In this document: piece by piece, positions 4,604 to 21,828 of the stretch
How the letters are laid out: every line of letters begins with the position of its first letter
Position numbering within the stretch: position 1 is the first letter of the stretch
Assembly (NCBI RefSeq): GCF_937129525.1
Contig: NZ_CAKZNK010000127.1
Coordinates: 1 to 64,000, forward strand
Length of the DNA stretch: 64,000 bases
Reading direction: 5' to 3'
Source of the DNA: an uncultured Chloroflexus sp.
Lineage (GTDB): Bacteria > Chloroflexota > Chloroflexia > Chloroflexales > Chloroflexaceae
The notes under the pieces: generated by a model
The model's input: the letters and a program-made list of their open reading frames with translations, nothing else
The model's database searches: none
Told to the model about the DNA's origin: nothing
Made by a program: the position numbers and the translations under genes

Positions 4604-4613
4604 TCATTAAGAA

Positions 4614-5441
4614 ATGGTGAATTTGCGGAGAATTGGTCGCGCCTTCTTTGCCGACCCGGCGACGGCAACCGGCACAATCATTGTGATGATATTTTTCGGA
4701 TTGGCGCTATTTGGCCCGTCGATCGCGCCGTACAGTCCAACTGCTCAAAACGTAGAGCTGATCCGTCAACCGCCGTCGTTTGGTCATCCTCTCGGCACTG
4801 ATCGGTTGGGGCGTGATTTGCTAAGTCGGATCATCTACGGCGCGCGCGATATTCTGATCCTGGCGGGCAGTGGCACGGCGCTAGCGGTCATCTGCGGCAC
4901 GCTGATTGGCGTTAGTGTAAGCTACCTGGGAGGATGGCTCGAAGAGCTGGTATTTCGCCTGTTTGACGGGCTGTTAGCCTTGCCCGCACTGCTGCTGGCC
5001 CTGCTGTTGCTGGGAGTAGTTGGACCATCACGCACGAGCGTACTGCTGGTGATCGTGGTGGTCTACACTCCCATCGTTGCTCGCGTTGCGCGGAGCGCGG
5101 TGTTGTCGCTCAAATCACGTGGCTTCATCGAAGCTGCCCGCATGCGAGGCGAACGGTTAAGTTACATCCTCTGGCGCGAACTCTTGCCGCTGGTAATGCC
5201 CACGCTCGCCGTCGAAGCTGCGCTGCGCTTTTCCTACGCAATTTTCCTGGTCGCATCGCTTGGCTTTCTCGGCGTTGGCGTGCAACCACCCAGCCCCGAC
5301 TGGGGGCTAATGGTGCTGGAAGCGCGCAATGAGTATGCGCTGGCACCCTGGTCACTGTATGCGCCGGCAGCAGCGATTGCCCTGCTGGTAATTGGGGTCA
5401 ATCTGATGGCGGAAGGAGTGCGTCAGACGCTAAATGAGTGA
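4614..5441 (+). CDS. ABC transporter permease, DppC/OppC type
   Basis: This is an inner-membrane permease of the peptide/nickel importer, 275 aa with about six membrane segments. The early motif GTDRLGRDLLSRIIYGARDIL is the hallmark of the DppC/OppC branch. The cytoplasmic EAA loop, which docks the ATPase, is visible at about residues 165-185 (SRGFIEAARMRGERLSYILW). It lies 10 bp after the binding-protein gene and should share its transcript. The partner DppB-type permease comes after the ATPase gene, an atypical order (usually B before C). Confidence 0.93.
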   Translation: MVNLRRIGRAFFADPATATGTIIVMIFFGLALFGPSIAPYSPTAQNVELIRQPPSFGHPLGTDRLGRDLLSRIIYGARDILILAGSGTALAVICGTLIGVSVSYLGGWLEELVFRLFDGLLALPALLLALLLLGVVGPSRTSVLLVIVVVYTPIVARVARSAVLSLKSRGFIEAARMRGERLSYILWRELLPLVMPTLAVEAALRFSYAIFLVASLGFLGVGVQPPSPDWGLMVLEARNEYALAPWSLYAPAAAIALLVIGVNLMAEGVRQTLNE

Positions 5442-5528
5442 TAGGTCTGGCGCATCAACCCATCGGTGACCGTCAACGTGTATGCTGCGCAAACCGGGTG
5501 ATGAGATCTGGCAATATTTGTAATTGCA

Positions 5529-7526
5529 ATGAGTGGTCTGGAAGTACAACAGCTTACAATTGAATATCGTGTTGCCAACCAGACTTTACCGGTAGTGCGT
5601 GACATTAACCTGAGCGTCGGCGCTGGCGAAACGCTTGGTATCGTTGGCGAGAGCGGCAGCGGCAAGAGTACGCTGGGGCTGGCGATCTTGCGCGCGTTGC
5701 CGGCAAACGGAAGAATCAAAGCCGGGCAGGTACTGCTCGATGGGATTGATCTGACACGGGTGCAAGGCCCGGCGTTGCGCGCCTTGTGGTCGCGCTCGTT
5801 GCGACTGGTACCGCAAAATCCGCTGGCGGCCCTCAATCCAACTTTGCGAATCGGTGACCAGTTGACTGAAGCGATTGGCGGTCGCCGCCAGGACGCCATC
5901 GCCCAGGCTGCTGCATTGCTGGCGCGCGCGCAAATTGCCGATCCAATGCGAGTGCTGCGCAGTTATCCCCACGAACTCAGCGGTGGCATGCAGCAACGAG
6001 TTATGATTGCCATGACGTTTCACGGGGCGCCGCGCCTGCTGGTACTCGATGAGCCAACGACCAGTCTCGATGTGACCACAGAAGCCGCTGTTGTCGATCT
6101 CCTCGCTGATCTGATCGCCGAACGCCGACCAGCCGCTCTGTTCATTTCGCACAACCTTGGCCTGGTTGCGCGCATCGCTACCCGCGCGGCTGTGCTCTAC
6201 GCCGGCGAACTGGTTGAAATCGCGCCCACAACATTCCTCTTCCAACACCCACGCCATCCCTATACCCAGGGATTACTGGCCAGTTTGCCTCATCCCGGTC
6301 TACGCTACAACCAGAATCCCCTGCAACCAATTGCAGGCACGTTGCCCGACCCCGGCGCGTTGCCGGCTGGTTGCATCTTCGCGCCGCGCTGTCCGCTGGC
6401 CGATGAACAATGCCGACGCGAACGACCACCTTTATTACCGGCGACTCCTGACCACCTGGTGCGTTGTCACCACTGGACGATGGTCGAACCTTACGCACCC
6501 TCGCCGGCCACGCCGACAATCAACGCGCTGACGAACGGCCAACCGCTTTTGGCAGCCCATCGTTTGACGAAGACCATCACACCTCGCCGCACATTCGCTG
6601 ATCTGGTTCGCGGGAAGCGACCTGCGCCGATGATTGCACTGGCGGGGGTCGATCTGACCGTATGCCGCAACCGCACCCTGGGGGTGGTCGGCGAAAGCGG
6701 CAGCGGCAAGACCACTCTCGCCCGCTGCATCATCGGGCTAACGCCACCGTCAAGCGGCGCTATTGAATTGATCGATATTCCACTGGCGCCATCGATTCAG
6801 CAACGACCGCCTGAACAGCTTCGACGCTTGCAGATGGTGTTGCAAAATCCGCAAGAGGCGCTCAATCCGGCACTAACAGTTGGTGAAGCGCTGCGCCGCC
6901 CGCTTATCCGCCTCGGCGGTCTTGACCGGCGGACAGCAGATCAGCGGATACCCGACTTGTTACGCCTGGTCAGCCTGCCACCAGAATATGCCAATCGTCG
7001 CCCCCATCAGCTTAGTGGCGGCGAGAAACAGCGGGTGGCAATTGCGCGCGCACTGGCGGCAACGCCCGATCTGCTCGTGCTCGACGAGGCCGTTTCGGCG
7101 CTCGATGTCTCGGTGCAGGCGGCGGTCTTGAATGTGCTGGCCGCGATCAAGGAACGAACCGGGATTGCGTATGTGTTCATTACCCACGATCTGGCGGTAG
7201 TCAGTTATCTGGCTGATGACGTGGTTGTGATGTACCAGGGCCAGATCGTTGAGCAGGGACCGGTCGCGGCAGTGCTATCGCCACCGTTGCATCCCTATAC
7301 TGAAGTACTGCTGTCAGCAAGCCAGCCGGATGGAATTCGGGCGCGCGAAGCTGACACCGCTGTTCCACCACCTGTTTCGGGATGCCCGTTTCAGCCACGC
7401 TGCCCACGCGCAATCGGTGAATTGTGTCGCACCACCCCGCCACCGTGGCGCGATGCTGGCGGTGGACATCTGATTCGCTGCCACATCCCGTTACCAGATT
7501 TACGCGCTGCGCAAATGACGGATTGA
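5529..7526 (+). CDS. Fused double ATPase of a peptide/nickel ABC importer (DppD-DppF type)
   Basis: This 665-aa protein joins in one chain the two nucleotide-binding subunits that are often separate DppD and DppF proteins. Half one has Walker A GESGSGKS (residues 40-47), the signature LSGGMQQR and Walker B LLVLDEPT. Half two repeats these as GESGSGKT, LSGGEKQR and LLVLDEAVSALD. Each half ends with the Cys-containing oligopeptide-transporter C-terminal segment (FAPRCP and FQPRCP), typical of this family. It would power import by the neighbouring permeases. The ATG has no strong ribosome binding site, and 87 bp separate it from the upstream permease. DppD-DppF fusions are known elsewhere, so this is unusual but not unique. 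Confidence 0.93.
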   Translation: MSGLEVQQLTIEYRVANQTLPVVRDINLSVGAGETLGIVGESGSGKSTLGLAILRALPANGRIKAGQVLLDGIDLTRVQGPALRALWSRSLRLVPQNPLAALNPTLRIGDQLTEAIGGRRQDAIAQAAALLARAQIADPMRVLRSYPHELSGGMQQRVMIAMTFHGAPRLLVLDEPTTSLDVTTEAAVVDLLADLIAERRPAALFISHNLGLVARIATRAAVLYAGELVEIAPTTFLFQHPRHPYTQGLLASLPHPGLRYNQNPLQPIAGTLPDPGALPAGCIFAPRCPLADEQCRRERPPLLPATPDHLVRCHHWTMVEPYAPSPATPTINALTNGQPLLAAHRLTKTITPRRTFADLVRGKRPAPMIALAGVDLTVCRNRTLGVVGESGSGKTTLARCIIGLTPPSSGAIELIDIPLAPSIQQRPPEQLRRLQMVLQNPQEALNPALTVGEALRRPLIRLGGLDRRTADQRIPDLLRLVSLPPEYANRRPHQLSGGEKQRVAIARALAATPDLLVLDEAVSALDVSVQAAVLNVLAAIKERTGIAYVFITHDLAVVSYLADDVVVMYQGQIVEQGPVAAVLSPPLHPYTEVLLSASQPDGIRAREADTAVPPPVSGCPFQPRCPRAIGELCRTTPPPWRDAGGGHLIRCHIPLPDLRAAQMTD

Positions 7527-7696
7527 CTGTCGTGATGAGGAGAAAGAGTTGCATGTTGGGAAGTAGCAAGCCGGCACCATGAGCCAGATTATCTCAGATA
7601 ATCTTGAGATAGCTGAGCGAGCATCTGCCGGCAAAAGCTTGCCAGCATCAGATGAAAGGTTCCTCCTTGCCAGACAACAATTGAGCGGAAATATCC

Positions 7697-8656
7697 ATGA
7701 TCCTTCGTTATCTGTTGCGCCGTGTAGTCTTGCTCGGTGTCACGGTGTTAATCAGCTCTATCATCATCTTCGTCATCTGTCGGCTGCTACCCGGTGACGT
7801 GGCCCGCGTCTTGCTGGGCCGCGAAGCCAGTGAAGCAGCACTGACAGCTCTGCGCGCCGAACTCGGACTCGACCGGCCATTACCGATCCAGTATCTCGAC
7901 TGGCTACGCGGCTTTGTCAGCGGCGACTGGGGAGTTTCGTACAGCACTCGCCAGCTCATCCGACCACTCGTATTTGAACGCTTACACAACTCACTCCTAC
8001 TGGCCGGAGCAACCCTGCTTCTGGCAATCCCTCTCGGTATCGGGCTAGGGGTATGGGCCGGAAGACGCGCCGGCAAGCTCGACGATACGGCGATCAGTAT
8101 AAGCACACTCGCCGTCACCGGTCTGCCTGAATTTGTCACCGGCTTGCTGTTGATCGATCTCTTCGCCTTCCGCATGCGCATGTTACCTGCCAATTCATCA
8201 CTGCGACCTGACGCCAACCTGCTGGAAATCATCCCACAGTTGATCCTGCCGGCAATGACTGCAACTCTGGTGCTACTGGCATATATTGCCCGACTGACGC
8301 GCGCCGGTGTGATCCATGAGCTTAATCAAGATTATGTGCGCACAGCGATGCTTAAGGGGCTGGCGCCCTTTACCTTGCTCCAACGGCACGTGTTACGCAA
8401 TGCGCTGCTGCCGGTGATTACGGTCATCGCTATCAGTCTGGGCTGGCTGATCAGTGGATTGATAGTGGTTGAAAATGTGTACAACTACCCGGGTATCGGT
8501 CGGCTATTGACCTTTGCCATCGATCGACGCGACCTGATCCTGCTACAGGCAGTGGCGATGATCACGGTTGTCATCTTTGCAGTTGCCAACCTTCTGGCCG
8601 ATCTGCTCTATGCCCTACTCGATCCACGTATCAGGTTGGGTGATGAAACGCGGTAA
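7697..8656 (+). CDS. ABC transporter permease, DppB/OppB type
   Basis: This 319-aa permease has about six membrane segments and completes the importer. The N-terminus (MILRYLLRRVVLLGVTVLIS) and the following FVICRLLPGD are diagnostic of the DppB/OppB branch. The EAA loop is visible as QDYVRTAMLKGLAPFTLLQRH. AGCGGAAA lies upstream of the ATG. It sits 170 bp after the fused ATPase; a small overlapping frame at 7579-7797 is not supported as a gene. The stop codon TAA at 8654-8656 forms the first bases of a 55-bp tandem repeat. Confidence 0.93.
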   Translation: MILRYLLRRVVLLGVTVLISSIIIFVICRLLPGDVARVLLGREASEAALTALRAELGLDRPLPIQYLDWLRGFVSGDWGVSYSTRQLIRPLVFERLHNSLLLAGATLLLAIPLGIGLGVWAGRRAGKLDDTAISISTLAVTGLPEFVTGLLLIDLFAFRMRMLPANSSLRPDANLLEIIPQLILPAMTATLVLLAYIARLTRAGVIHELNQDYVRTAMLKGLAPFTLLQRHVLRNALLPVITVIAISLGWLISGLIVVENVYNYPGIGRLLTFAIDRRDLILLQAVAMITVVIFAVANLLADLLYALLDPRIRLGDETR

Positions 8657-8769
8657 TCAAACTGGATCGCGCCAGACATGAAAAAGCGCGCCGCCTATAG
8701 CGACGCGCTAATCAAACTGGATCGCGCCAGACATGAAAAAGCGCGCCGCCTATAGCGACGCGCTAATCA
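8654..8769. repeat. Two identical 55-bp tandem copies carrying an intrinsic terminator
   Basis: Copies at 8654-8708 and 8709-8763 are identical, followed by six bases of a third (taatca). Each begins with the TAA stop of the preceding permease gene. Each contains a hairpin AGCGCG-c-CGC-ctata-GCG-a-CGCGCT. The duplication looks recent because no base differs. Confidence 0.9.
8681..8764 (-). terminator. Duplicated rho-independent terminator for the small minus-strand gene
   Basis: On the minus strand each 55-bp copy gives a GC-rich hairpin (8685-8709 and 8740-8764) followed at once by TTTTT. They lie just downstream of the 99-aa gene at 8792-9091, so two intrinsic terminators act in series there. 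On the plus strand there is no T-tract after the hairpins. Confidence 0.75.
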
Positions 8770-8791
8770 CGAAACCAGGTATCCCTGGCTA

Positions 8792-9091
8792 TCATACCTG
8801 AAACTGGTCGATCATCGTTAACACTTGTTGGCGATATTGGGTCCAGGCTCGCCGACCGAGCAGGCCCTCTATCACATGCTCCAGGCACGACCGACTGCTA
8901 AACGCAGCTTCTACGCCATCTGATGGACGGATAATGTAACCATGCCAGTTTTGCTTGCGGTCAAAGATAATATGCAAGGTTTGATTGCCAACAAAAAGAC
9001 GGTATTCCACTGGATTATCACTTTCCCGTTGATATGACATCGCTGCCGACCCTTTGAGCAGTCGGTGAGCGTGATCAAGACAGAATAGCAT
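8792..9091 (-). CDS. Small conserved-looking hypothetical protein
   Basis: I do not recognise this 99-aa protein. It has no signal peptide or membrane segment and contains a mix of aromatic and charged residues (VEYRLFVGNQTLHIIFD, NWHGYIIRPSDGVEA). The gene is credible because a strong ribosome binding site (GGGAGGG) lies about eight bases before the ATG, a hairpin sits in its leader, and a duplicated terminator closes it. It is monocistronic and convergent with the ABC importer. A small soluble regulator or binding protein is possible, but nothing in the sequence settles it. Confidence 0.65.
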   Translation of the reverse strand: MLFCLDHAHRLLKGSAAMSYQRESDNPVEYRLFVGNQTLHIIFDRKQNWHGYIIRPSDGVEAAFSSRSCLEHVIEGLLGRRAWTQYRQQVLTMIDQFQV

Positions 9092-9120
9092 TGTGATACC
9101 CTCCCGCTAAACACAAAATA

Positions 9121-9144
9121 CACCTGAAATGCTGGCTTCAGGTG
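9121..9144. promoter_or_regulatory. Perfect hairpin CACCTGAA-N8-TTCAGGTG in the leader of the small gene
   Basis: An 8-bp perfect inverted repeat with an 8-base loop lies about 30 bases upstream of the ATG at 9091. On the minus strand it is followed by the T-rich run TATTTTGTGTTT, so it could act as an attenuator, the terminator of an upstream transcript, or a protein site. Confidence 0.35.
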
Positions 9145-9240
9145 TCGATCGGGGCGCTGGAGCCAGCCCAACGCAGCTCTACAGTACCACTATCAACTGC
9201 GGTACTTTACCTCCCCTAGATGGATCGGGGGGTGGAATGA

Positions 9241-9555
9241 GGTTGGATCGACAGGATCAAGTCGCCGGATGAGAGCGCTGGAACCGCGCCGAAAACCCTT
9301 CCCGCCAGAGGCGCGGGTGGATCGACCACCGCAGGTCGCCGGATGCGCGTATCACCCTGGCAACGTACCCGGCAACAACCAGTTGGATCAGCCGGGACAG
9401 GTTGCCATATGAGAGCGCTGGAACCGTGCCGAAAACCCTTCCCGCCAGAGGCGCGGATGGATCGACCACCGCAGGTTGCCGGATGAGCGTATCGATCAGG
9501 CAACGTACCTGACAACAACCAGTTGGATCAGCCGGGACAGACTGCCGGATGAGAG
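9241..9555. repeat. 140-bp tandem repeat, two near-complete copies plus flanking partial copies
   Basis: Segments beginning GAGAGCGCTGGAACCG at 9271 and 9411 recur 140 bases apart, and a partial third copy starts at 9551. The 30 bases before 9271 match the end of the unit. Copies differ at scattered positions, so the array is older than the 55-bp duplication. Open frames across it (minus strand 9216-9664) show no protein signature. The array ends directly in the promoter of the next operon. Confidence 0.85.
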
Positions 9556-9557
9556 CG

Positions 9558-9566
9558 TGGTATAAT
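9558..9566 (+). promoter_or_regulatory. Extended -10 promoter (TGGTATAAT) of the hydrogenase-like operon
   Basis: A perfect TATAAT at 9561-9566 preceded by TG-n lies 26 bases before the first gene start. No good -35 box is present, as expected for an extended -10 promoter. The preceding bases are the degenerate start of a third repeat copy. Confidence 0.6.
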
Positions 9567-9592
9567 GCGCCGCGACAGAGAGGAGAGGCAGC

Positions 9593-10678
9593 TTGAAATA
9601 CCAACTGACACTCCACCCGGTTGCCGGCGCATGGCACAGCGAACAGATAACTCTCACCATTCACGGTGAGCAGATCATTGACGTTGAATACCGGCCATCA
9701 CTGGGCGACGGAACCTATGCGCGCCAATTGACCAGAGGCGAGATCGAGAGCGCCACGCGCGCAGCGGCTCAGGCCTGCCCTTACTGTCGCATCGCTCACA
9801 CGCTGGCCTTGAGTCTGGCCATCGAGCATTTGGCCGAGATTACCGCGCCGTTGCGGGCGCAAGCGATACGAGTTGTGCTGGCCGAACTCGAACGCGCCGC
9901 ATCGCATATCAATACCCTGGCGGCGATTGCCACCGCATTAGGGCTAAGCGATGCAGCGCGGCTAAGCCGGCTGGAAACTCGTATCCGATCGATCCTGCTC
10001 ACAATTCTCGGTCGCTACGATGCAGGATTGATTTGCCCTGGCGGATTGGTCGAAGCGCCGACAGATGCCGCACTAAGAGAAGCCGACCGCGAGATTAACG
10101 AGCTGCTACCAGCAATGATCAGTGTTGCCGGGCAAGTGATTCCACGGCGCTCGCTGCTGGCCCGGATGGTTGACATAGGAGTGCTCAACACGGCTGCTGC
10201 CAAACAGTTTGGTCTGGCCGGACCACTTGCGCGGGCCAGTGGCATATCAACCGATCTGCGCACCGATTTGCCGTACAGCGGATATACCATCATCACGCCA
10301 ACGCCAGTGGTAGAAGAAGGTGGTGATGTACACGCCCGGGCAGTGGTGATGCTGTTAGAAGCGATTGAGTCATTGCGACTGGCAGCGCGCTGGTTGCATA
10401 ATCTACCGGTAGGCGTCGCGCGCGAAGACTTTCAGTTACGAGCCGGCGAAGCGACCGCCACCGTTGAAGCTCCCCGTGGGCCGCTGCGGTATACTGTGCG
10501 TAGCGACGGCCAACGGCTCAGCGAGGCGCAGATCGGCATTGCCCCTCAACTCGATCGGTTGCTGGCGCGCTCGCTGTTGCAACGGTCTGCGGTTGATGAC
10601 GCCTTGCTCATTGCTATTTCGACCGATCCATGCACGGCATGCTGGCAAGCAGCCACTTATCTTATAGGCCGCGCCTGA
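9593..10678 (+). CDS. Complex I 49-kDa / group 4 [NiFe]-hydrogenase-like large subunit
   Basis: The 361-aa protein resembles NuoD, EchE and the C-terminal part of HycE, the subunit that holds either the quinone site (complex I) or the NiFe centre (hydrogenases). Two cysteine pairs are present: CPYCRIAH (Cys62, Cys65, His69), matching the CxxC-x3-H hydrogenase L1 motif apart from a missing Gly, and DPCTAC (Cys347, Cys350), matching the L2 motif DPCxxC. The residue after the second pair is Trp rather than the usual Thr or His, and the protein ends 11 residues later. TTG is the start, with GGAGAGG upstream. It heads an operon of membrane subunits. Metal binding is possible but unproven; a catalytically dead relative (Ehr-like) is the alternative. 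Confidence 0.78.
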   Translation: MKYQLTLHPVAGAWHSEQITLTIHGEQIIDVEYRPSLGDGTYARQLTRGEIESATRAAAQACPYCRIAHTLALSLAIEHLAEITAPLRAQAIRVVLAELERAASHINTLAAIATALGLSDAARLSRLETRIRSILLTILGRYDAGLICPGGLVEAPTDAALREADREINELLPAMISVAGQVIPRRSLLARMVDIGVLNTAAAKQFGLAGPLARASGISTDLRTDLPYSGYTIITPTPVVEEGGDVHARAVVMLLEAIESLRLAARWLHNLPVGVAREDFQLRAGEATATVEAPRGPLRYTVRSDGQRLSEAQIGIAPQLDRLLARSLLQRSAVDDALLIAISTDPCTACWQAATYLIGRA

Positions 10679-10755
10679 GTTCTTGCGCCTGATCCGGTTG
10701 GCTGTCAAGCCCTGACACGACGGTCAGCCTTTGCTCATACAATCAAAGAGGTTTC

Positions 10756-12456
10756 ATGGGCCTGTACATTGGTCTGATCAGCCTCATTGTGAGCGCAGGA
10801 GCGTGTTTCGCGCTCACCCACATCGGCCTCACGCGCCGACTCGGTTTATTGGCCGCGCTGGCTGCCACTGTTGCAACCACCGGCGTCATTTTTGACCCAA
10901 TAATACCAGCGGTTACCGAACCGATTACCACCATCGGCGCTGTACCGATCTGGTGGCCGATGTCACCCGATCTGAGCGAACGAGCTCCGGTGATAATGTT
11001 ACTGTTTGGCGGTGCAATCGGGTTGCTGGCGCTAGCGCTGGCAGCGCCGCCTGATGCCGAAGGCTTCGGCGCCTTGTTTGGCTGGTTATTGCTTGCATTG
11101 ACAGCCGCGTGCATCAGTCTGACCATTCCACCGCTCAGCTTTCTGACTCCATTGAGCTGGGCATTGGCGATACTGGCCACGCATGGAGCGCTCATCAGTA
11201 GCGGTGCGATCCCGGCGCCAGCCCAACTTCCACCCCACCTTGTTGCCGGCGCAATAGCAGTCGCTGCCGTGTGCGGAATTATCGCGATGATGGCGCTGCT
11301 TCCCCCTGAAACGCTGCCAGAGCCAGCCCTGCTCGCGCTTGCTGTGATCGGCGCACTTGCTATCGCCGGAGCGCCACCATTCGCCGGAACACGGTTTGGC
11401 ACTGCCAATGCGCCAGCCTTGATCAGTACCCTCACCGTCGGCCTCGTCTTACCGACTATTGGTCTGGGATTTATTGTGCGGCTACTGGCTCAATTGCCGC
11501 CATTACCGCCATTGCCCGGTCACGTACTGGCCGCCATCGGAGCGCTCGGCTCGCTCGGCGCAGCTATCGGCGCGCTGCGATCCACCTCAGGACGAGAATT
11601 AGTGCTCTGGCAAGGCGCATTTCAGGCAGGTGTGATTGTGTGCGCTGCTGCGATCAGCGATCCACTGGCCAGTCTGGCTGCGCCAGCCCTCTTGCCGGCA
11701 TTACAACTTCACGCGCTAGCCGGAGGTCTGATTATCGCTACTATCGAACAGCGACAGGGTAGTGATGCACTGGATGGTTCACCAGCGCGCCGCGCCTTAC
11801 CGTTCACCGGAATCCTCTGGATCTTCACAACTGCAACCGCAATCGGTTTACCGATTGTCTGGAGCTTCTGGGGCTGGCGCTGGTTAATCGAGGCGCTGAC
11901 TACCCGTCTGCCCTGGATCATCGCCCCTTTAATCGCGGCTGCCGTGATCAATATGGCCGCCGGTTTACCCCTTCTCATCCGTTGCTGGTATGGCAAACCC
12001 GGAAAACATGAATTATGGCCGGAAAACATTCTTGCCGTCCTGATCCTGGCTCCGCTGACGCTAGCCGGTCTGATCCCCTGGCTGGCATGGCCGCTCTGGT
12101 TGAGCTGGTCACCATTCGCGCCACCGGTATTGCCTGCCGACCCCATTGCATGGCCATTGGTTGGATTGGTACTTAGCATCGGTTTAGGGGGCTGGTTCCT
12201 GGCGCGACAGGCCAGCTTGCCCTACGCTTCCACCGAAACTGACCATGCCGTCATACCGACCTGGTACGGCCTGGGTGAAATTCTCCACGGCCTGACTGAA
12301 TTCGCCACCGGGCGCGTGACGCTTAACGCCCTTGGTCGCGGCCTCGATCGAACGGCAAGTATGCTCCATATTGCGATGATCATCTTTGAACAACGTTACT
12401 ACCTGTTTGGGGTTATCATCGCTTTACTGATCATACTGGTCTTGATGGCACAATAG
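10756..12456 (+). CDS. NuoL/NuoN/HyfB-like antiporter-type membrane subunit, degenerate
   Basis: This 566-aa protein is almost entirely hydrophobic, with about 14-16 membrane segments. Its length and operon context suggest the proton-pumping antiporter-like subunits of complex I and group 4 hydrogenases. The equivalents of key charged residues look lost. The usual HALFKA motif, whose Lys is in the proton path, appears as LQLHALAGG, and the KRLLAYSS-type segment appears as GRELVLWQGAF. A late helix near residues 535-566 is preceded by an amphipathic stretch (LGEILHGLTEFATGRV), reminiscent of the lateral arm of NuoL. Family membership is therefore moderately supported; a normal pump mechanism is doubtful. 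Confidence 0.6.
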   Translation: MGLYIGLISLIVSAGACFALTHIGLTRRLGLLAALAATVATTGVIFDPIIPAVTEPITTIGAVPIWWPMSPDLSERAPVIMLLFGGAIGLLALALAAPPDAEGFGALFGWLLLALTAACISLTIPPLSFLTPLSWALAILATHGALISSGAIPAPAQLPPHLVAGAIAVAAVCGIIAMMALLPPETLPEPALLALAVIGALAIAGAPPFAGTRFGTANAPALISTLTVGLVLPTIGLGFIVRLLAQLPPLPPLPGHVLAAIGALGSLGAAIGALRSTSGRELVLWQGAFQAGVIVCAAAISDPLASLAAPALLPALQLHALAGGLIIATIEQRQGSDALDGSPARRALPFTGILWIFTTATAIGLPIVWSFWGWRWLIEALTTRLPWIIAPLIAAAVINMAAGLPLLIRCWYGKPGKHELWPENILAVLILAPLTLAGLIPWLAWPLWLSWSPFAPPVLPADPIAWPLVGLVLSIGLGGWFLARQASLPYASTETDHAVIPTWYGLGEILHGLTEFATGRVTLNALGRGLDRTASMLHIAMIIFEQRYYLFGVIIALLIILVLMAQ

Positions 12457-12484
12457 CGCATTGTGAGGCAAAGGATAACGCACC

Positions 12485-13207
12485 ATGGTTGTCGATATCT
12501 GGATCATTCTGCTCGGACTCGCGGCAGGTGGCATCTTATTACTGCGGGACTGGCGCCTCACCGTTGGGCTGTTGATGCTCAAGTATGTCGTCCTGGCCGG
12601 ATTACTGAATGAGCAACCCTTTGTGCAACCAGACCTGGGTCAGATGGGGCTGAGTTCACTTGCGCTCATTAAATTGATCACCGGTATTTGCACAACGCTA
12701 ATCCTGGCAGTGACAGCGCTGACCTTTTCGCGTGAATATGGACTTGAAGACCTTGACGAGTTCGGACAGGCTGAGCTGCGTCGGGCGCTTCGCGCCGCAG
12801 CGCGCCAACGATCCACAGAGACGTTTCAACTCATCGACTATATCCTGCCGTTTGGGTCGGGGGTCGCAGCGCTGGTAGCCAGTATCGTATTGCCGATCAT
12901 CTATCCAATTGCGCCCAATCCGGCGCTCGATTTTGCCTGGTACTGGCTGGCCCTGAGCGGAATTCTGAGCATTGCGACAGCCAGCGACATCTTGAAAATC
13001 GGCCTGGGCATGCTGCTCTGTATCAGCGGGATCGACCTGCTTTACACCGCCGTGATCAGCGACCCGGCGGCAAGCGGCCTGAAAATCATGCCACTCTTAC
13101 TCCTTAGCGTCGTGCAAATTTTACTGGCACTCGCCATTGCCTACCTGGCCGGACTTGTCTACGGACGCTTGAAAACACTGGCTATTAATGAACTCTATCG
13201 TGGATAA
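12485..13207 (+). CDS. HyfE/NuoK-like membrane protein
   Basis: The 240-aa protein has about three N-terminal membrane segments, a charged cytosolic loop (residues ~78-108, rich in Glu/Arg) and about four more segments. The C-terminal part (ILKIGLGMLLCISGIDLLYT, then a final long helix) resembles NuoK and the C-terminus of HyfE, small membrane subunits next to the antiporter-like proteins. AAAGGAT lies before the ATG. It is 28 bp after the previous gene and 2 bp before the next, so it is clearly co-transcribed. Confidence 0.55.
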   Translation: MVVDIWIILLGLAAGGILLLRDWRLTVGLLMLKYVVLAGLLNEQPFVQPDLGQMGLSSLALIKLITGICTTLILAVTALTFSREYGLEDLDEFGQAELRRALRAAARQRSTETFQLIDYILPFGSGVAALVASIVLPIIYPIAPNPALDFAWYWLALSGILSIATASDILKIGLGMLLCISGIDLLYTAVISDPAASGLKIMPLLLLSVVQILLALAIAYLAGLVYGRLKTLAINELYRG

Positions 13208-13209
13208 CC

Positions 13210-14661
13210 ATGCTCTACCTGTTACTAATCTTTTTTCCAATTAGCATGGCCTTTAGCGCTTTTCTGCTACGCCGATTGCCACGTATCGCCATCGGTCTTG
13301 GCATTGGCGCACTCATTGTTGAGCTACTCCTGGCAGTGCAGGTGCGGGTCGATGATCCGGTGCGAGTGTTGGGCGTGACCTTTTTACTCAGCCCGTTGAA
13401 TCAGATCTTCTTGTTTCTCTTTTTGGGGGTGGGAATTACAACTCTGATAGCGGCTCTGGTTTTACCGCACGGTGAACATTTCAGCGCCATCGGCTTACTC
13501 ACCACCGGGCAGACGATGGCCATTCTGCTGATGCAAGACTCGTTTGTGACGGCTCTCGTCCTGGTGACCATCGGTCTCACCACGGTGCTGGCGATTGTTG
13601 ATCTTCCTTTCGGGGCCGGCGTGCTGGTCAGTCGCCAAACGCTCGTCACCGCACTGAAGTATCTGGTTTTGATGGTCATCGCCGGCATTTTGCTCTACAT
13701 TGCCTATGTGTTAACCGACATCTTTCGTCCGGGTGAATTACCGGGGCGCATCTCGCCAGCGCGCTTCATTCTCGCCCTGCTGGCAGCCGGCTTCGCTTTG
13801 CGGATGGCTTTAACGCCATTCCACTCCTGGCTGGTTGACCTGGTATCTTACGCCGGATCACTGGCGGCAATCCTGATCATCGCCCTGCCCACACCGGCCA
13901 GTCTGCTGGTCTTTCTGCTTACGCTGCAAAGTTTTCCGACGCTGATATTCGAAGGTGGGCAAGCGCTGGTTGTGCTCCGGATCGGCGCCGCCATCAGCGC
14001 AGTGCTGGCCAGCGCCCTGGCGCTGACTGCCGGTTCACTCCACCAGCGTATCGCTTACCTGATTGCAACCAATTGCGGTATCATATTTTACAGTTTTGTA
14101 TCGTTATCATTAGCAGGATTGAGTAGTGCGATTCTCGGGGTGATCAACCTTGCCCTGGCCGTCACTACCGTCTTAATCAGCCTGGCTCTCCTTGGATATC
14201 CTGATGGCCGCTTGCTAGCAACATCACGGAGCGATCTCTTCTGGCACCGGCCAATGGCCGGGGCAGGGTTGCTGGGTGGTGGTCTGGCGTTAATCGGATG
14301 GCTGCCATCGCCAGGTGGAACGAGCTATCTGCTGGCCTTACAGACAGCGGCAGCTATGCACTGGCTGGAACTGCTGGCATTGTTGATCGCAATGGCGCTG
14401 GCGGCGCTAACATTAGCACAACTGGCGGTACAATATTTGATTGGATCAGGTGAAGTGCCTGCTGATGAAGAACCACCGTTGCTTGGCGAGACGATCCTCG
14501 ACCGCCCACCACCACCCCGATACGTCGGCGAGCCGGCGGGGGTAGCGGGATTGATCGCGCTCTTGTTGATTACGATGCTGATCATTGGCGCCTTTCCCAA
14601 TCTGTTACTGCCGACGATTGAAGCGGCTGTGCGCAGTTTAGCCACATTAAGCACCGTGTAG
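13210..14661 (+). CDS. NuoM/NuoN-like antiporter-type membrane subunit
   Basis: This 483-aa polytopic protein keeps clearer antiporter-family marks than its 566-aa neighbour. FALRMALTPFHSWLVDLVSYAGS matches the conserved PFHxWLPDxxxxAP segment (shortened here). ALKYLVLMVIAG matches the helix that often follows it, and SLHQRIAYLIATNCG matches the KRxLAYSSIxxxG segment with Lys replaced by Gln-Arg. The HALFKA Lys is not evident (GVINLALAVTTV). It should sit in the membrane arm of the complex. A charged, proline-rich cytosolic loop with DEEPP and RPPPPPRY precedes the last helix. Confidence 0.68.
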   Translation: MLYLLLIFFPISMAFSAFLLRRLPRIAIGLGIGALIVELLLAVQVRVDDPVRVLGVTFLLSPLNQIFLFLFLGVGITTLIAALVLPHGEHFSAIGLLTTGQTMAILLMQDSFVTALVLVTIGLTTVLAIVDLPFGAGVLVSRQTLVTALKYLVLMVIAGILLYIAYVLTDIFRPGELPGRISPARFILALLAAGFALRMALTPFHSWLVDLVSYAGSLAAILIIALPTPASLLVFLLTLQSFPTLIFEGGQALVVLRIGAAISAVLASALALTAGSLHQRIAYLIATNCGIIFYSFVSLSLAGLSSAILGVINLALAVTTVLISLALLGYPDGRLLATSRSDLFWHRPMAGAGLLGGGLALIGWLPSPGGTSYLLALQTAAAMHWLELLALLIAMALAALTLAQLAVQYLIGSGEVPADEEPPLLGETILDRPPPPRYVGEPAGVAGLIALLLITMLIIGAFPNLLLPTIEAAVRSLATLSTV

Positions 14662-14686
14662 ACTGAGAAAGGGCACCAACACATTT

Positions 14687-15502
14687 ATGCTGTTAGCCGG
14701 ATTGCTGGCACTCGTCATCTATCCAGGTGGATTATTGGCGCTCGGACTGGGGCTAGGCTATCGGTTGCTTGCTACCCGACAATTGCCAGAGCATGGTAGT
14801 TTGATTCTGACCAGGGAATGGATCGGCTGGATAGCCCTGGCTACGCTGGCCCTCATCGCCGGCGGTCTTACCGGATTGCCCTGGCCGTGGCATCCATCGC
14901 CGTTCGCGTTTGGCTGGGCTGGAGCCTGGGTGCTACTGGAACTGGCAGCATGGCTACTGTTCTGGCCAATGTTGACCGCCGGCACACCACACCTTGTCCG
15001 GGCAGCAGTGCGCGAAGCCCAAATTGGCATGTTGGGGCGTGCCATGTTGTGGGGCGTGGCCGCAATCGGCTTTAGCGGCGCCGATGCGCTCAATGTCTGG
15101 TCACTTGGAGGGCATCTGCTCTTGTTATTAGCCGGCCTGGTCATTCTACCGGCAGCGATCAACTGGGGCCCATTTGGACCAGAGCCTTCGCTCAGCCCAC
15201 GCGGAATCCTGGAAGGGCTACCTGCGCGTTCGGCTACAACTCTGACCTTTGCCCGCGATACACTGGCTGCGGCGCTGATTTCCGTGGTCTGGCTGGCCGG
15301 CCTCCCAACCACCCTGCTGCCGCCATTCATCGCGCTGTTGATTATTTTCGGTGGTAGCGCGATTACTATCACAAGTTTGAGCTGGTTACACGGTCGGCTA
15401 CCTCGCCTAAGTGTACCGGCAGCGATCCGCGCGATCATTGTGTGGGGAGGAATTCCAGCCGTGCTGGCGATGACAATGCTGAGTCAGACGCAAGGCACTT
15501 GA
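14687..15502 (+). CDS. NuoH/HyfC/EchB-like membrane subunit, degenerate
   Basis: The 271-aa protein has about eight membrane segments. Two patches suggest the NuoH/HyfC family, which connects the hydrophilic module to the membrane arm. VREAQIGMLGR resembles the SREAxxG-type loop, and PSLSPRGILEGLPARSATT occupies the place of the PFDxxEAExELVEGxxxEYSG motif but has lost most acidic residues. The quinone-channel glutamates are thus mostly missing. It is the last gene of the operon, 25 bp after the previous one. The assignment rests on weak motifs and operon position. Confidence 0.5.
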   Translation: MLLAGLLALVIYPGGLLALGLGLGYRLLATRQLPEHGSLILTREWIGWIALATLALIAGGLTGLPWPWHPSPFAFGWAGAWVLLELAAWLLFWPMLTAGTPHLVRAAVREAQIGMLGRAMLWGVAAIGFSGADALNVWSLGGHLLLLLAGLVILPAAINWGPFGPEPSLSPRGILEGLPARSATTLTFARDTLAAALISVVWLAGLPTTLLPPFIALLIIFGGSAITITSLSWLHGRLPRLSVPAAIRAIIVWGGIPAVLAMTMLSQTQGT

Positions 15503-15570
15503 GCGCTATGCCGAACATAGGTTGCCGGGATGGTTTGCAACAGCGTTAATCCGCAGTGGAGAGCAACGCC

Positions 15571-16629
15571 ATGACCGATATCATCGTCGTCGAAGGTCTT
15601 TCCAAAAGTTATGGTCATGTTTCGGTGTTACGCGGCGTTAACCTGCGTGTTTCCACCGGCGAAGTCTATGGACTGTTAGGACCAAACGGAGCCGGTAAGT
15701 CCACGCTCCTGCATCTGCTGCTCGGTTTTTTGTATCCCGATAGCGGTCGGATTCGCATTTTCGGCAGCGCCGATCTCGAAGCTCAACGTCGCATGATCGG
15801 CTACGTCCCGGAACGGCAGCGCTACCACAACCATTGTACGCCACGTGAGTACCTGACCTTCCTCGGTCGCTGCGATGGTATGGAAATAGCACACTTACGC
15901 CAGCGCATCGACGAATTACTTGAACTCACCGGCCTCAGCACGGTTGCCAATCGCTATCTCCGCACTTTCTCGAAAGGGATGTTGCAGCGATTCGGTATCG
16001 CGCAGGCGCTGCTGAATGACCCCGATCTCTTGCTGATCGATGAACCGACCAGCGGTCTCGATCTCGATGGCCAGCAAGAATTGCTCACTCTGCTCAACAA
16101 TGTGCGTCAGCGCGGCCATACCGTCTTGATCTGCACCCATCGGCTAGCCGAGGTCGAATATCTCTGCGATCGCGTTGGCATCCTGGCTCATGGCAACATT
16201 GCGCTCGAAGTCAATGTCGCCGACGTGCAGCAAAAGATTGGCGGTATGATCGTGCAAACCGGCCCGCTCGATCTACCGCTGCGCCAACGGCTTGAAATGA
16301 TCGGGAGCGAGGTGCAATGCGAAGAACAGGCAGTTATCATCAGCCCGCACAATCCCGAATCACAAGCCAGAGTCTTACAAACCTTGCTCGAGGCTAATGT
16401 GACAATTCGGGCACTCGAACCACAGGTGAGCAGACTGGCCCAAATCTACACGCGAACGGTGCGGGGCGAACCGGTAGACAACTTGCTGGTAGAAAACCCG
16501 CCATTGCCACGGGTCGTGCTCCGTGAAACTACTCCTCCACTACCGACTGACGAGATTGATCCGTTATTGAAACGACTGTTGCGACAAAACCGCAATCGTT
16601 CGCCCGACCAGAAGGATAGCAAGCAATGA
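15571..16629 (+). CDS. ABC transporter ATP-binding protein
   Basis: The 352-aa protein is the ATPase of an ABC-2 type exporter. Walker A is GPNGAGKST, the signature region is FSKGMLQRFGIAQALL, Walker B is LLLIDEPTSGLD, and the switch His is in LICTHRLAE. The C-terminal ~130 residues form a regulatory extension ending in a charged tail. The frame is open from a GTG at 15556, but ATG 15571 is chosen for the GGAGAG seven bases before it. Its stop overlaps the ATG of the permease gene (ATGA), which implies translational coupling. The substrate is unknown. It lies 68 bp after the hydrogenase-like operon and could be read through from it. Confidence 0.92.
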   Translation: MTDIIVVEGLSKSYGHVSVLRGVNLRVSTGEVYGLLGPNGAGKSTLLHLLLGFLYPDSGRIRIFGSADLEAQRRMIGYVPERQRYHNHCTPREYLTFLGRCDGMEIAHLRQRIDELLELTGLSTVANRYLRTFSKGMLQRFGIAQALLNDPDLLLIDEPTSGLDLDGQQELLTLLNNVRQRGHTVLICTHRLAEVEYLCDRVGILAHGNIALEVNVADVQQKIGGMIVQTGPLDLPLRQRLEMIGSEVQCEEQAVIISPHNPESQARVLQTLLEANVTIRALEPQVSRLAQIYTRTVRGEPVDNLLVENPPLPRVVLRETTPPLPTDEIDPLLKRLLRQNRNRSPDQKDSKQ

Positions 16630-17402
16630 TACGGCAGATGACACAAGCTGTCTTGGTGGCCGGCTTTACCCTGCTAGAGTATCTGCGTTCAGGCCGAATC
16701 TTCCTCGAACTGATAGCAACCATAGCCTGTTACGTCATACTACTGCGGCCTACCAGCGCGGCAATGAACGCCAGCTATCTCTTTGCAGTGCTGGGCATAT
16801 TTGGACCGGGAATGGCAGTTATCACCACCGGATTTATTGTCGGTTTGGGCGATCGACCGCAGAATTATATCGTGCTGACCCACAATGTCAGTCGCGATGC
16901 CTTTCTGCTCGGCTTGTTCTTTGCCGCCGTGATCGTTACTCTGGCCATGTATGGCATCCTCTGCGCGCTGGTGGCACTCTTCAACCGGGCAACCGATCTT
17001 ACCCTCTTCGGCTGGACACTCGCTACCCTGCCCCTCATCCTGAACACCGGCCTGGTGGCAGCGATTGCCCTGTTGCTCTCGCCGCCTGTCTTAAGCGCGG
17101 GCTGGAGGCTCTTCGTGCTGGCACTGATCGCGTTAGCCTTATCGAGCAATGTAATCAGCGGACCGGTCATCGCTCAGATCAGTGAAATCAACCCCTTACT
17201 GGTTGACCTGCTGCGCGCCATACAAACCATTTTGAGTGGCCCGTTGGTGCCAGTTTTTTACGGTTACCAGTTGAGTGTCAGCCGCGCTTTCGATAGCGCA
17301 CCAGCCTGGGCCAACCTGCTCGCCCAATGCCTGCTACTCCTCTCATTTCTGGGTTTGGCCCGCTACGGTTTCCATCGGCGCGATCTCATCTTCAGCGTCT
17401 AG
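16626..17402 (+). CDS. ABC-2 type transporter permease
   Basis: This 258-aa membrane protein has about six to seven predicted membrane segments and shares an ATGA overlap with the preceding ATPase gene, so it is that ATPase's membrane partner. No substrate-specific feature is visible. The extracytoplasmic loops are short, as in drug, lipid or small-molecule exporters rather than large-substrate importers. It ends convergently with the M23 peptidase gene, overlapping it by four bases. Confidence 0.8.
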   Translation: MIRQMTQAVLVAGFTLLEYLRSGRIFLELIATIACYVILLRPTSAAMNASYLFAVLGIFGPGMAVITTGFIVGLGDRPQNYIVLTHNVSRDAFLLGLFFAAVIVTLAMYGILCALVALFNRATDLTLFGWTLATLPLILNTGLVAAIALLLSPPVLSAGWRLFVLALIALALSSNVISGPVIAQISEINPLLVDLLRAIQTILSGPLVPVFYGYQLSVSRAFDSAPAWANLLAQCLLLLSFLGLARYGFHRRDLIFSV

Positions 17403-19198
17403 CGCGTCGCGGAATCGGTCACCGGCACAAAGGCAATTGCATCGGCCCAAATACCGCGTTGCCGATCTCCGGCTACAGTGCCGGTAGCCACCAGCGGTCG
17501 CGCTGCCGGATCGAACGTGTAGATACCCAAATCGGCCCACCAGTTACGTTCTGCTTCCAGATCGATGGTGATCACCGTTTCACCACCCTGGTGGCGGATC
17601 AGAAACCGCGCTTCGCGTGAGTCATCGTAGCCGTTGAGCGCAAAAGGGACATAAGCCAGCACTCGATACTGCCCCACTGCCGGCAGTTCAGGTTGCCAAA
17701 CGGCGACGCGGGGAGCAGCAAAATCGCTCAAGCGCCATGGTCGCAGCGCGCTGGCGGCCAGGAATGACGGCGCAAACCGCGCCCCGCCACCATAGCCGCT
17801 CGCAATCGATTGCCAGTCTCCCGTTGCGCGAAATTGCGGATCGTCATCATCAACTACTATCACCCCGGCTGGTGGCGGGGCGCAGGGTGAAGGCATATCG
17901 CGCCACAACCAGACGCTAATCTGACCAACCGGATTGGCAGCCCACGGATCGGGATCGCTACCACACCAGCCATATGGATCAACATCGCGGCCTAAATACT
18001 GCACCTGCAAATGAAGATGCGCTCCCCGCGCGCACCCCGTATCACCGGCAATGCCAAGGACATCGCCGCGCGAAACCTCATCACCGGTCGTCACACTTAC
18101 CCGGGCCAGATGCCAATAGAGGGTACGGTACCCATTTCCGTGATCGATAATGACGGCTCCAGCAGGTGTTGCGCAGCCATCATCGGAATAGCCGGCAAAG
18201 ACAACCAGACCCGGCGCGGCAGCCAGCACCCGTTCAGGTGGCCCCATTGCATAATCCCAGCCAGTATGACCATCATAGGCAAAAGCTCGATCGGTTTCAC
18301 TGCGCCCCCAAAAGGTATGGAGTGATCCATTCGCGCGCAAAAAGGGGGCATCGTGATCAAAGAACGAGGTCACAGGCACATTGCGTTCTGCCGGTCGTGT
18401 CAGGAACGGCTCAGCCGGCGGTGGCCAATCGAGCGGAGCAAGCCGGGGATCGAGCGCAAACAACCGTTGATAGGTAGGCGCAACTGCCCCAAGCAGCGAC
18501 TCGAGTCGGGCTGGCGCGGTTGTAGGCGCTAATGCCCGGCTCAACACGTAGCGACTGAGATCGGTGGGAGCCGCCATCTGACTGCCATCGGCGAAAATCA
18601 AAGGCGGCAATGCCTCAGGGCCGAGCAGGGCATAGTCACGCAACGCGGCGCGCACTTCGCGGGTCAGCCAGCGCAATTGAGCAAACAAACCGCGCCGGCT
18701 ACCGTTATCACCGCGAAACCCGGCAGCCCACGCCAGTTGCTCATTGCTGGGGCTTTCTGCGCTGAGCAAGCCGCTTTGCAACTCCATCAAGCTCAACAAC
18801 AGGCGGGGACTGACACTGTAGAGGCTGCTGAGCGACACCAGTACCTCGACAAACGAATGGCTGCGCCGACCGATGTTTATGCGCGTAGTTGCCAGCGGAC
18901 TATTGCGCGCAGCTAAAAAAGCTTGTATCTCTGGAGTGCTGAAGTTATGATCGTAGCTCAGTCGCTGCGGATCGAAGATCGGATGAATTGCTGGCTCAGG
19001 CGTCGCTGTTGGAACAACAGTAACTGTTGCGATTGGGGTTGCAGTTGGGACAGGCGTCATCGTCGCAGTGGCCGTAACCACTAGTTGAGGCAATGGCGCT
19101 GATGTCACAGCCACCATCGGCGTCGGAGTTACCGACGGCGGGGAAGGCGCTGCGCAGGCACTCAGGCAGATAAACAACATCAACAGCAAACGACGCAT
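17399..19198 (-). CDS. Secreted M23 (LytM-type) peptidase with golvesin-like C-terminal domain
   Basis: The mature part is a cell-envelope metallopeptidase candidate, a family that usually cleaves peptidoglycan cross-bridges. From ATG 19198 it is 599 aa. A lipoprotein-type signal (MRRLLLMLFICLSAC) is followed by a Pro/Thr/Val-rich stalk of about 60 residues and a helical region of about 210 residues. The M23 domain then shows GHTGWDYA (zinc His and Asp) and GAHLHLQV (zinc/catalytic HxH), all intact. After VVDDDDPQF, the last ~140 residues form a beta-rich domain resembling the golvesin C-terminal domain. Earlier in-frame starts reach 19327 but put the signal peptide inside the chain. No strong ribosome binding site is visible. 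Confidence 0.85.
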   Translation of the reverse strand: MRRLLLMLFICLSACAAPSPPSVTPTPMVAVTSAPLPQLVVTATATMTPVPTATPIATVTVVPTATPEPAIHPIFDPQRLSYDHNFSTPEIQAFLAARNSPLATTRINIGRRSHSFVEVLVSLSSLYSVSPRLLLSLMELQSGLLSAESPSNEQLAWAAGFRGDNGSRRGLFAQLRWLTREVRAALRDYALLGPEALPPLIFADGSQMAAPTDLSRYVLSRALAPTTAPARLESLLGAVAPTYQRLFALDPRLAPLDWPPPAEPFLTRPAERNVPVTSFFDHDAPFLRANGSLHTFWGRSETDRAFAYDGHTGWDYAMGPPERVLAAAPGLVVFAGYSDDGCATPAGAVIIDHGNGYRTLYWHLARVSVTTGDEVSRGDVLGIAGDTGCARGAHLHLQVQYLGRDVDPYGWCGSDPDPWAANPVGQISVWLWRDMPSPCAPPPAGVIVVDDDDPQFRATGDWQSIASGYGGGARFAPSFLAASALRPWRLSDFAAPRVAVWQPELPAVGQYRVLAYVPFALNGYDDSREARFLIRHQGGETVITIDLEAERNWWADLGIYTFDPAARPLVATGTVAGDRQRGIWADAIAFVPVTDSATR

Positions 19199-19509
19199 AG
19201 CGCCAGCAGGATAGCCGAAGAAGGCCATCCGGTCAAGTTGAATAAGGCATAGCAGCACACGACTCACCTGACGGTTGCAGGCACGCCGCGCCAGCACAAC
19301 AATGAGGTGTCGGGCGAGCCGCGCCATCTGCGCTCATCGCAATCGGCAGGATGCTAACATATCACCGGCCTGCCTTCTCCACACCTCATAGAGAGCTGTC
19401 ACAACCCGCAAACCATATCCACACTGCCACAATTCCGATCAGCCGATAGCGCGGCAAGCGAGTCAGCTCTCGCAACGAAAACTGCCACTTCAATTCCGCC
19501 TGCAACCTA
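19199..19509. other. Intergenic region upstream of the M23 gene
   Basis: No gene is supported here. It contains the open upstream extension of the M23 frame (to 19327), and a minus-strand open frame (19386-19748) without recognisable features crosses it. The promoter for the following leader begins at 19510. Confidence 0.4.
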
Positions 19510-19538
19510 TTGACGACAGCCCCCATCAGATGTATAAT
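19510..19538 (+). promoter_or_regulatory. Strong sigma70-type promoter upstream of a structured leader
   Basis: TTGACG (19510-19515) and a perfect TATAAT (19533-19538) are separated by 17 bases. Transcription should start near 19545, over 500 bases before the decarboxylase start. Confidence 0.75.
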
Positions 19539-19544
19539 GCGCAC

Positions 19545-19881
19545 TCGGTTGAGCCAATCGACCGTGTCATTCGCGCCCCCCGTTACGTTTGGGTTACGGG
19601 TTTCGCGTTTCGGGAAGGCACCCGACACACGTAACACGCAACACCGAACGCCGAGCGGAAATCGTCGTCGCGGCAACAACAGTTGCCCTGTGTGGGAGAC
19701 GGCGTCGGGTGGGCTAGTGTGAGGCAGTATGGACGGCGCATACAACATACGCGCGATTCAGCGCTTCCCAAACTGCACACATGTACGCCGTGCGCGCGCA
19801 GGTTTGACCTGCTAACCGCGCGCGAGTGACGCTGCGCGTTCTCGCTCCCCCGGCCACTGCATCAGGTGCAGGGCCTTTTTT
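19545..19881 (+). ncRNA. Structured leader RNA or small RNA ending at an intrinsic terminator
   Basis: Between the promoter at 19510-19538 and the terminator at 19852-19881 lie about 340 transcribed bases without a convincing gene. Visible structure includes a long hairpin 19792-19823 (outer stem GCGCGC/GCGCGC, inner stem GCAGGT-ttg-ACCTGC) and a second hairpin 19822-19845 (GCGAG..ACGC-tgc-GCGT..CTCGC) that shares two bases with the first, so the two could compete. The terminator follows. It matches no RNA class I can name (not tmRNA, RNase P, SRP or 6S by eye). It could be a cis-acting riboswitch or attenuator for the decarboxylase, or a free small RNA. Confidence 0.5.
19852..19881 (+). terminator. 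Rho-independent terminator inside the leader of the decarboxylase gene
   Basis: GGCC-(a)-CTGCA-tcagg-TGCAGGGCC forms a 9-bp stem with one bulged A and is followed directly by six T residues. It stands 190 bases before the decarboxylase start and has no plus-strand gene upstream. Confidence 0.8.
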
Positions 19882-21577: not shown

Positions 21578-21609
21578 GCGTAACGCTATCACCAATTATC
21601 AGGATAATG

Positions 21610-21764: not shown

Positions 21765-21828
21765 GAATATACTGTAATCTGCAGGCCGTCGCGGTGTGCT
21801 CAACAGAATAACAAACAGGGAGTGCTCC

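Follow-up and report, generated by a model that had tools for sequence, protein, structure and literature searches.

Several described systems lie close to the operon analysed here. Ehr complexes were described as having no Ni/Fe ligands (PMC6349859), and MBS retains two of the four Cys together with an Fe-S subunit (PMC7684303). In Mrp and complex I, a set of Glu and Lys residues is key for proton translocation, and in Mrp the Glu/Lys pair is described as essential (PMC7419157). In the hydrogenases, acidic residues of the beta1-beta2 loop (HycE D192/E193, MbhL E21) function in proton transfer (PMC9474812). Two complex I clusters are reported in the genome paper of C. aurantiacus, the available sections of which make no mention of the five-gene operon (PMC3150298). 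No described Chloroflexus Ehr was found in the literature open to readers outside subscription papers.

The locus lies in a 64-kb window of a Chloroflexus genome (the window being the whole stretch of DNA that was analysed), where five open reading frames occupy 9593-15502, all in one direction (+ strand, as for every feature given below) and separated by gaps of 2-78 nt. Gene 1 (9593..10678) encodes a HycE/MbhL/NuoD-like large subunit of 361 aa and begins with a TTG start, upstream of which is a ribosome site, GAGAGGAG. Genes 2 (10756..12456) and 4 (13210..14661) encode antiporter-like subunits, the former MrpA/NuoL-type by profile and closest to MrpA, the latter MrpD/NuoN/NuoM-type and closest to MrpD/NuoN. 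Between them gene 3 (12485..13207) encodes a HyfE/NuoK (MrpC/MbxG)-like subunit, which has a weak profile match (E 0.013) and is the most conserved of the membrane subunits. Gene 5 (14687..15502) has no sequence-profile match, nor any to the NuoH of its own genome, and its identity was therefore settled by structure: the predicted model (pLDDT 89) has the HycD/NuoH fold, with Z 20.7 to 7z0s_D, indicating a diverged membrane anchor. Reading frames, profiles and this structure thus bear out the composition proposed in a sequence-only reading of this DNA, namely a large, two antiporter-like, one HyfE/NuoK-like and one NuoH-like protein. That reading was also right in seeing no NuoB, NuoC or NuoI next to them, since neither profile nor phmmer searches recovered such genes at 4001-22000; within the operon, no NuoA, B, C, E, F, G, I or J and no MrpB/E/F/G was recognised. 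Other Chloroflexus genomes have the identical five-gene order, and as three of these are single-contig genomes, an assembly artefact is ruled out.

What the sequence-only reading overlooked is an ABC transporter pair. Gene 6 (15556..16629) encodes a DrrA/GldA-like ABC-transporter ATPase and gene 7 (16626..17402) its partner, a membrane permease that has no Pfam or NCBIfam match and is conserved together with gene 6. The relatives' loci were collected with gene 3 as query, the large-subunit alignment having no sufficiently conserved stretch. Among the 34 loci of three families (f1, f4, and f2 as represented by g19) that have gene 5 with a visible neighbourhood, the ABC ATPase stands directly behind gene 5 in 34/34; f3 and f5 loci lack this link. 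As judged from gene context, the unit is larger than the five genes described earlier, and the ABC ATPase and permease at 15556-17402 belong to it.

Between genes 4 and 5 there are only 25 nt in this genome (14662..14686), at a site where Roseiflexus-type and other relatives carry a 115-aa MbhJ/NuoB-like gene. This small subunit, with its CxxC...C...CP motifs, occurs there in the basal genera of f1, in f2 (g19), in f3 and in f4; the Roseiflexus-type protein scores above the cut-off of PF01058, and MbhJ is the best solved match of the relatives' protein (4e-20). Since the gene is linked in relatives, the five-gene form arose by loss, and the 'new minimal complex' envisaged at first does not hold: as reconstructed from these loci, the Chloroflexus complex is secondarily reduced, not primordial minimal. 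Comparison of the loci shows an ancestral Chloroflexales form of six subunits (large, antiporter-like, HyfE/NuoK-like, antiporter-like, NuoB/MbhJ-like small and NuoH-like), with the ABC ATPase/permease pair downstream of it in three families. In the tree, the 19 rows without a small subunit form one clade (SH-aLRT 100), and at least two small-subunit losses are forced. The tree thus shows that the Chloroflexus clade lost the small subunit and its [4Fe-4S] cluster, with at least one further loss elsewhere. Any NuoC/NuoI or other ferredoxin subunit appears, across the family, only in distant f11/f12 loci.

The possibility that the small subunit lies elsewhere, also raised in that reading, is true of Herpetosiphon, where the small-subunit, NuoH-like and ABC genes have moved together to another locus, but not of Chloroflexus. 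In the complete Chloroflexus genomes G006, G007 and G009 the only two profile matches are both complex I NuoB. The genome studied here has four PF01058 genes, all accounted for: complex I clusters hold two of them, another encodes the HoxY subunit of a bidirectional hydrogenase, and the fourth lies 7.7 kb away from hypD. The dedicated profile leads only to complex I NuoB. The proposed search of related genomes therefore found the operon shared and a NuoB-like gene linked in relatives, yet absent from Chloroflexus.

Gene 1 falls within the NuoD/EchE family, as had been assumed (PF00346, 4.5e-27). Among solved structures the best match is HycE from formate hydrogenlyase (3e-74, end-to-end alignment), and gene 1 also aligns with MbhL by profile. 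The four NiFe-site Cys noticed earlier are present as CPYC and DPCTAC, and the PRG Arg and DPC Asp are kept too, while other relatives of gene 1 have lost one to four of the four Cys. The pairing of four Cys with a missing small subunit is indeed unusual; Ehr and MBS differ from it. The catalytic acid of the beta1-beta2 loop is absent in f1-f4, where the loop is of the GPFHPAWRGPQR type or LHPVAGAWHS-EQ, and only f5 relatives have it (GPWHPALDEP). The processing site of [NiFe] hydrogenase large subunits is a C-terminal DPCxxCxx(H/R); in gene 1 the corresponding stretch is DPCTACWQAATYLIGRA, with neither His nor Arg at +3. HypD is encoded in the genome studied here and is absent from seven f4 genomes whose large subunit keeps all four Cys, so that there is no NiFe(CN)2CO site in these relatives. 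A working hydrogenase is ruled out by the missing catalytic acid and by these seven four-Cys relatives without HypD. On these residues and genes, the predicted complex is not a hydrogenase and its four Cys are no sign of a working NiFe site.

The Cys/Arg/Asp pocket is nevertheless best kept precisely in the clade without a small subunit, with four Cys in 15/19 rows and both the DPCxxC Cys pair and the PRG Arg in 19/19. Such retention after the loss is more in keeping with a site of chemical activity than with a role in structure only. It is one of the observations in favour of a persisting redox chemistry, in which the large subunit would recruit a NuoB of complex I, or an unrelated ferredoxin would bind directly at the Cys-lined pocket; the genome also has two complex I NuoB copies, and the host has HypD. 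However, both NuoB copies are encoded inside complex I clusters, and the dedicated small subunit is so far diverged that its profile match to NuoB covers only 31-113. With the catalytic acid gone and the residues of the proton path decayed as well, we consider this explanation distinctly improbable. Alternatively, the large subunit may be a sensor or carrier of a metal (Ni, Fe or Zn) that uses the four-Cys pocket without electron transfer, with the ABC pair exporting the metal or a metallo-compound. The conservation of the four Cys, the PRG Arg, the DPC Asp and the CxxCxxxH His after small-subunit loss, and the occurrence of HypD in nearly all f1 genomes, agree with such a role. It is made doubtful, and in our estimate of low probability, by the seven f4 genomes that keep four Cys without HypD and by the loss of one L1 Cys in some genomes of the clade.

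In the membrane subunits, the antiporter half-channels have lost most of their canonical Glu and Lys residues, as alignment of the predicted proteins shows. Gene 2 has none of the canonical TM5 Glu, TM7 Lys, TM8 Lys and TM12 Lys; in gene 4 the TM5 Glu is lost, the TM7 Lys is replaced by Arg and the TM12 Lys by Tyr, and the TM8 Lys is missing as well. The TM5 Glu is missing from genes 2 and 4 in nearly all rows, whereas the complex I subunits of the same genome keep it in 6/6. At TM12 of gene 4, Lys is found in 18/23 rows with a small subunit, and Y/S/H/Q/R in 24/28 rows without a linked one. The acidic NuoH loop of gene 5 is down to a single Glu. The Lys-to-Arg changes of gene 4 keep the charge, so that some ion transport may persist. 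One may imagine a complex that, like Mrp, transports or exchanges ions with no redox input: the ions would pass through the products of genes 2, 3 and 4, with the large and NuoH-like subunits as a regulatory lid. The affinities of genes 2 and 4 to MrpA and MrpD/NuoN point this way, as do the Arg kept at gene 4 TM7 and, in most rows, at gene 2 TM12, and the stand-alone antiporter-K-antiporter trio of other Chloroflexota, near which no large, small or NuoH-like gene was recognised. Still, with the TM5 Glu and TM8 Lys lost from both genes, the NuoH loop so reduced, and TM12 in Chloroflexus carrying Tyr/Ser (gene 4) and Trp (gene 2), such a transporter is unlikely.

Losses accumulated stepwise across the order (large-subunit Cys, small-subunit Cys, the small subunit, linkage to the NuoH-like gene) and gene 2 evolves fast, as would be expected of a relic on its way out that no longer serves a function. 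Against this, every Chloroflexus genome that was read through has all five frames uninterrupted, the genes were kept across about ten genera after the small-subunit loss, and dN/dS among Chloroflexus species is 0.06-0.18 for all five genes. These estimates show the remaining predicted subunits to be under purifying selection and rule out a pseudogene operon; a decaying relic is very unlikely.

While the identity and history of the complex are well supported, its function is a matter of more tentative reading. By its gene content, without NuoB, NuoC and NuoI, the operon encodes no usual electron route, and the loss of the small subunit while the other subunits and the ABC genes were maintained suggests a role other than redox-driven pumping. 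Genomic context makes a tie to the co-encoded ABC transporter the best reading. We therefore favour, at about even chances, a reduced member of the MBH/Ehr/complex I superfamily that would be redox-silent and work with the ABC transporter. According to this model, a redox reaction would no longer be coupled to proton pumping; the large, NuoH-like, K-like and two antiporter-like proteins would form a membrane assembly that works with, gates or anchors the transporter, and the Cys-lined pocket would be a structural, metal-binding or thiol-sensing site. A bolder version, to which we give little probability, holds that the four-Cys pocket is under selection as a metal/thiol switch. By way of the NuoH-like and antiporter-like subunits this switch would gate a dedicated ABC exporter, and a former redox pump would have become a transporter regulator.

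In models of complex I evolution, a redox-driven pump gains modules or has them exchanged; the Chloroflexales order shows the reverse. Depending on the lineage, the Ni/Fe-type ligands have decayed, the small subunit has lost its Fe-S ligands, or it has disappeared altogether. Purifying selection meanwhile still maintains the large, NuoH-like and antiporter-like subunits next to an ABC transporter. The operon opens to experiment the question of what a membrane assembly of the complex I type can do without electrons. It also shows that the four hydrogenase Cys, a common signature for NiFe annotation, can persist without an Fe-S partner or, in relatives, without the Hyp machinery.

The two complex I sets of the same genome share homologous NuoD, NuoH and NuoL/M/N-type subunits with the operon, which differs in having no NuoB/NuoC/NuoI connecting module, in the four Cys of its large subunit and in lacking the Glu/Lys proton-path residues that complex I keeps. 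Genes 2-4 resemble MrpA, MrpC and MrpD, but Mrp has a TM5 Glu/TM7 Lys/TM12 Lys path that is not found here, and the operon adds large and NuoH-like subunits. With E. coli formate hydrogenlyase (HycE/HycD/HycC/HycG) it shares a HycE-type large subunit and the HycD fold of gene 5, and with Pyrococcus MBH an MbhL-type large subunit and, in relatives, a small subunit closest to MbhJ; unlike both, Chloroflexus has no small subunit, ferredoxin subunits or catalytic acid, and its antiporter residues are mostly lost. Of the features of group 4 [NiFe] hydrogenases (MBH/FHL/Ech), the four-Cys HycE/MbhL-type large subunit is present, whereas the small subunit with its proximal [4Fe-4S] cluster is missing in Chloroflexus and Hyp genes do not accompany the four Cys in the seven f4 relatives. 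To Ehr/Mbx/MBS the likeness lies in a hydrogenase-like large subunit with antiporter-like subunits and, in relatives, a retained small subunit. The Chloroflexus operon has the antiporter-like subunits and NuoH-like anchor of Ehr; it differs in that the Fe-S small subunit, present in six-subunit relatives, is gone, and in that gene 1 keeps the four Cys, whereas several relatives of the same family are, like Ehr, without Ni/Fe ligands.

The operon at positions 9593-15502 of the forward strand comprises the five co-directional genes described in the sequence-only reading, and the identity and history of the complex they encode can be assigned with high confidence. Gene 1, the large subunit, matches PF00346 (4.5e-27); the profile of its family (27 members) lies closest to E. 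coli formate hydrogenlyase HycE (3e-74) and to MbhL, and its AlphaFold model (pLDDT 90) has HycE and NuoD as structural matches. Of the two antiporter-like proteins, gene 2 matches MrpA/NuoL and gene 4 NuoN/MrpD in profile comparison, and the HyfE/NuoK-like gene 3 is weakly matched to MbxG/MrpC (E 0.013). Gene 5 gave no match in the sequence search; its predicted structure (pLDDT 89) is that of HycD/NuoH (Z 20.7 over 250 residues), with HycD, NuoH and ND1 types throughout the top Foldseek ranks. Just upstream of gene 1, a tandem direct repeat of two 140-nt copies (9242-9557, 86% identity) is built from about five diverged 36-nt units with a spacing of 74/66 nt.

Relatives from the same taxonomic order carry, between gene 4 and gene 5, a gene for a 115-aa protein with the motifs GSCGGCD, GRCA and DGCPP. 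This protein is of the NuoB/MbhJ type (PF01058, 57.5 bits, cut-off 27; MbhJ, 4e-20), and occurs in families f3 and f4 (except one genus of the latter), in genus g19 of f2 and in basal genera of f1. Of the genomes compared, G064, G042 and G007 are presumably of Roseiflexus, Herpetosiphon and C. aurantiacus type. Chloroflexus and several other genera lack the small subunit; a tree of 57 genomes places 19 rows without it in one fully supported clade and requires two or more losses, with parsimony giving three. The small subunit is therefore ancestral and was lost later. The alternative raised earlier, that it lies elsewhere, is right for Herpetosiphon-type genomes, where a second locus groups the small subunit, its CxxC lost, with a NuoH-like gene, an ABC ATPase and a permease (L114 6744-9761 in G042, the large-subunit cluster being some 2.4 Mb away). 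It is wrong for Chloroflexus, whose genomes, three single-contig ones included, hold only the two complex I NuoB copies in a 158-genome scan with the small-subunit profile. Since this loss, genes 1-5 have been retained across deep divergence, and all five are under purifying selection between Chloroflexus species (Nei-Gojobori dN/dS 0.06-0.18, complex I controls 0.01-0.11, dS being saturated in the more distant pair). The operon is still functional.

Membrane-only trios seem to exist too in Chloroflexota. Gene-3 homologues there (mostly E 1e-6 to 1e-18) are, in other families, often flanked by two antiporter-like genes, as at L127 (5721-9942) and L129 (5235-9133), where no large, small or NuoH-like gene was recognised within 15 kb.

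The four cysteines of gene 1 (CPYC and DPCTAC) are real, as first read. The pocket is, unexpectedly, best kept in the clade without the small subunit: the DPCxxC pair in 19/19 rows, the L1 cysteines (CPYC in gene 1) in 16/19 and 18/19, the PRG Arg in 19/19 and the Asp of DPC in 18/19. Outside this clade 12/33 rows have all four cysteines; within its genera, 8/9 further genomes have them. Such counts are inflated by shared ancestry, but the mean column identity at which the DPCxxC pair survives is about 63%. Could the complex be a hydrogenase? HypD is required for the hydrogenase cofactor, and seven f4 genomes keep all four cysteines without it. His or Arg usually follows the last Cys in hydrogenases; in gene 1 WQA follows, with neither. 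Across the family the cysteines decay, all four being lost in genus g10 of f1 and the second L1 one in Herpetosiphon and f3. An acid of the beta1-beta2 loop serves hydrogenases (HycE D192/E193; PMC9474812); it is missing from all f1-f4 rows of the large subunit and present in f5 relatives (GPWHPALDEP). Cysteine decay, the four cysteines without HypD and the missing acid rule a hydrogenase out. Two g10 loci (L068, L095) present the inverse case, a large subunit that has lost all four cysteines beside a small subunit that keeps its Cys motifs. The f5 large subunits (L056, L057, L086-L088) keep the acidic loop AL[DE]EP and CGKC/CxAC(A/G)ER, and the linked small subunit, as read in the alignment for L056, has lost its Cys ligands. 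Elsewhere in the Chloroflexus genome, contig C124 carries a HoxF/HoxU/HoxY-type bidirectional hydrogenase cluster (L102), and contig C91 a further PF01058 gene that lies 7.7 kb away from hypD (L103).

The best clue to present function is the conserved linkage to an ABC ATPase and permease (15556-17402, after gene 5). The ATPase gene directly follows gene 5 in 34/34 f1, f2 and f4 loci having gene 5, and the permease is found in 31 of these; in Herpetosiphon the pair moves together with the genes for the NuoH-like protein and the small subunit. Five f3 loci and the f5 loci lack the pair. The ATPase belongs to the DrrA/GldA type of exporter, but scores under every curated cut-off among the matches listed. 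The preferred explanation is a redox-silent assembly that may support or regulate the transporter, a role we put forward tentatively, and whose Cys pocket would serve as a structural, metal or thiol-sensing site; this explanation as a whole has about an even chance of being correct.

No NuoC or NuoI homologue occurs in the f1-f8 loci, so the form with six subunits, too, would seem to hold no more than a single cluster. Canonical parts of the proton path are missing as well. In Mrp and complex I, the TM5 Glu and the Lys residues of TM7, TM8 and TM12 are described as key to proton translocation (PMC7419157). When genes 2 and 4 were aligned with the six NuoL/M/N proteins of the genome's own complex I, the TM5 Glu, kept there in 6/6, was missing from both in nearly every member; the TM8 Lys is lost from both as well. 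In gene 4, the TM7 Lys is replaced by Arg, and the TM12 Lys, kept in 18/23 rows with a small subunit, is Tyr or Ser in Chloroflexus. The acidic NuoH loop reads PFDLVEAEQELTGGYNTEY in the genome's own complex I, whereas it reads PFGPEPSLSPRGILEG in gene 5.
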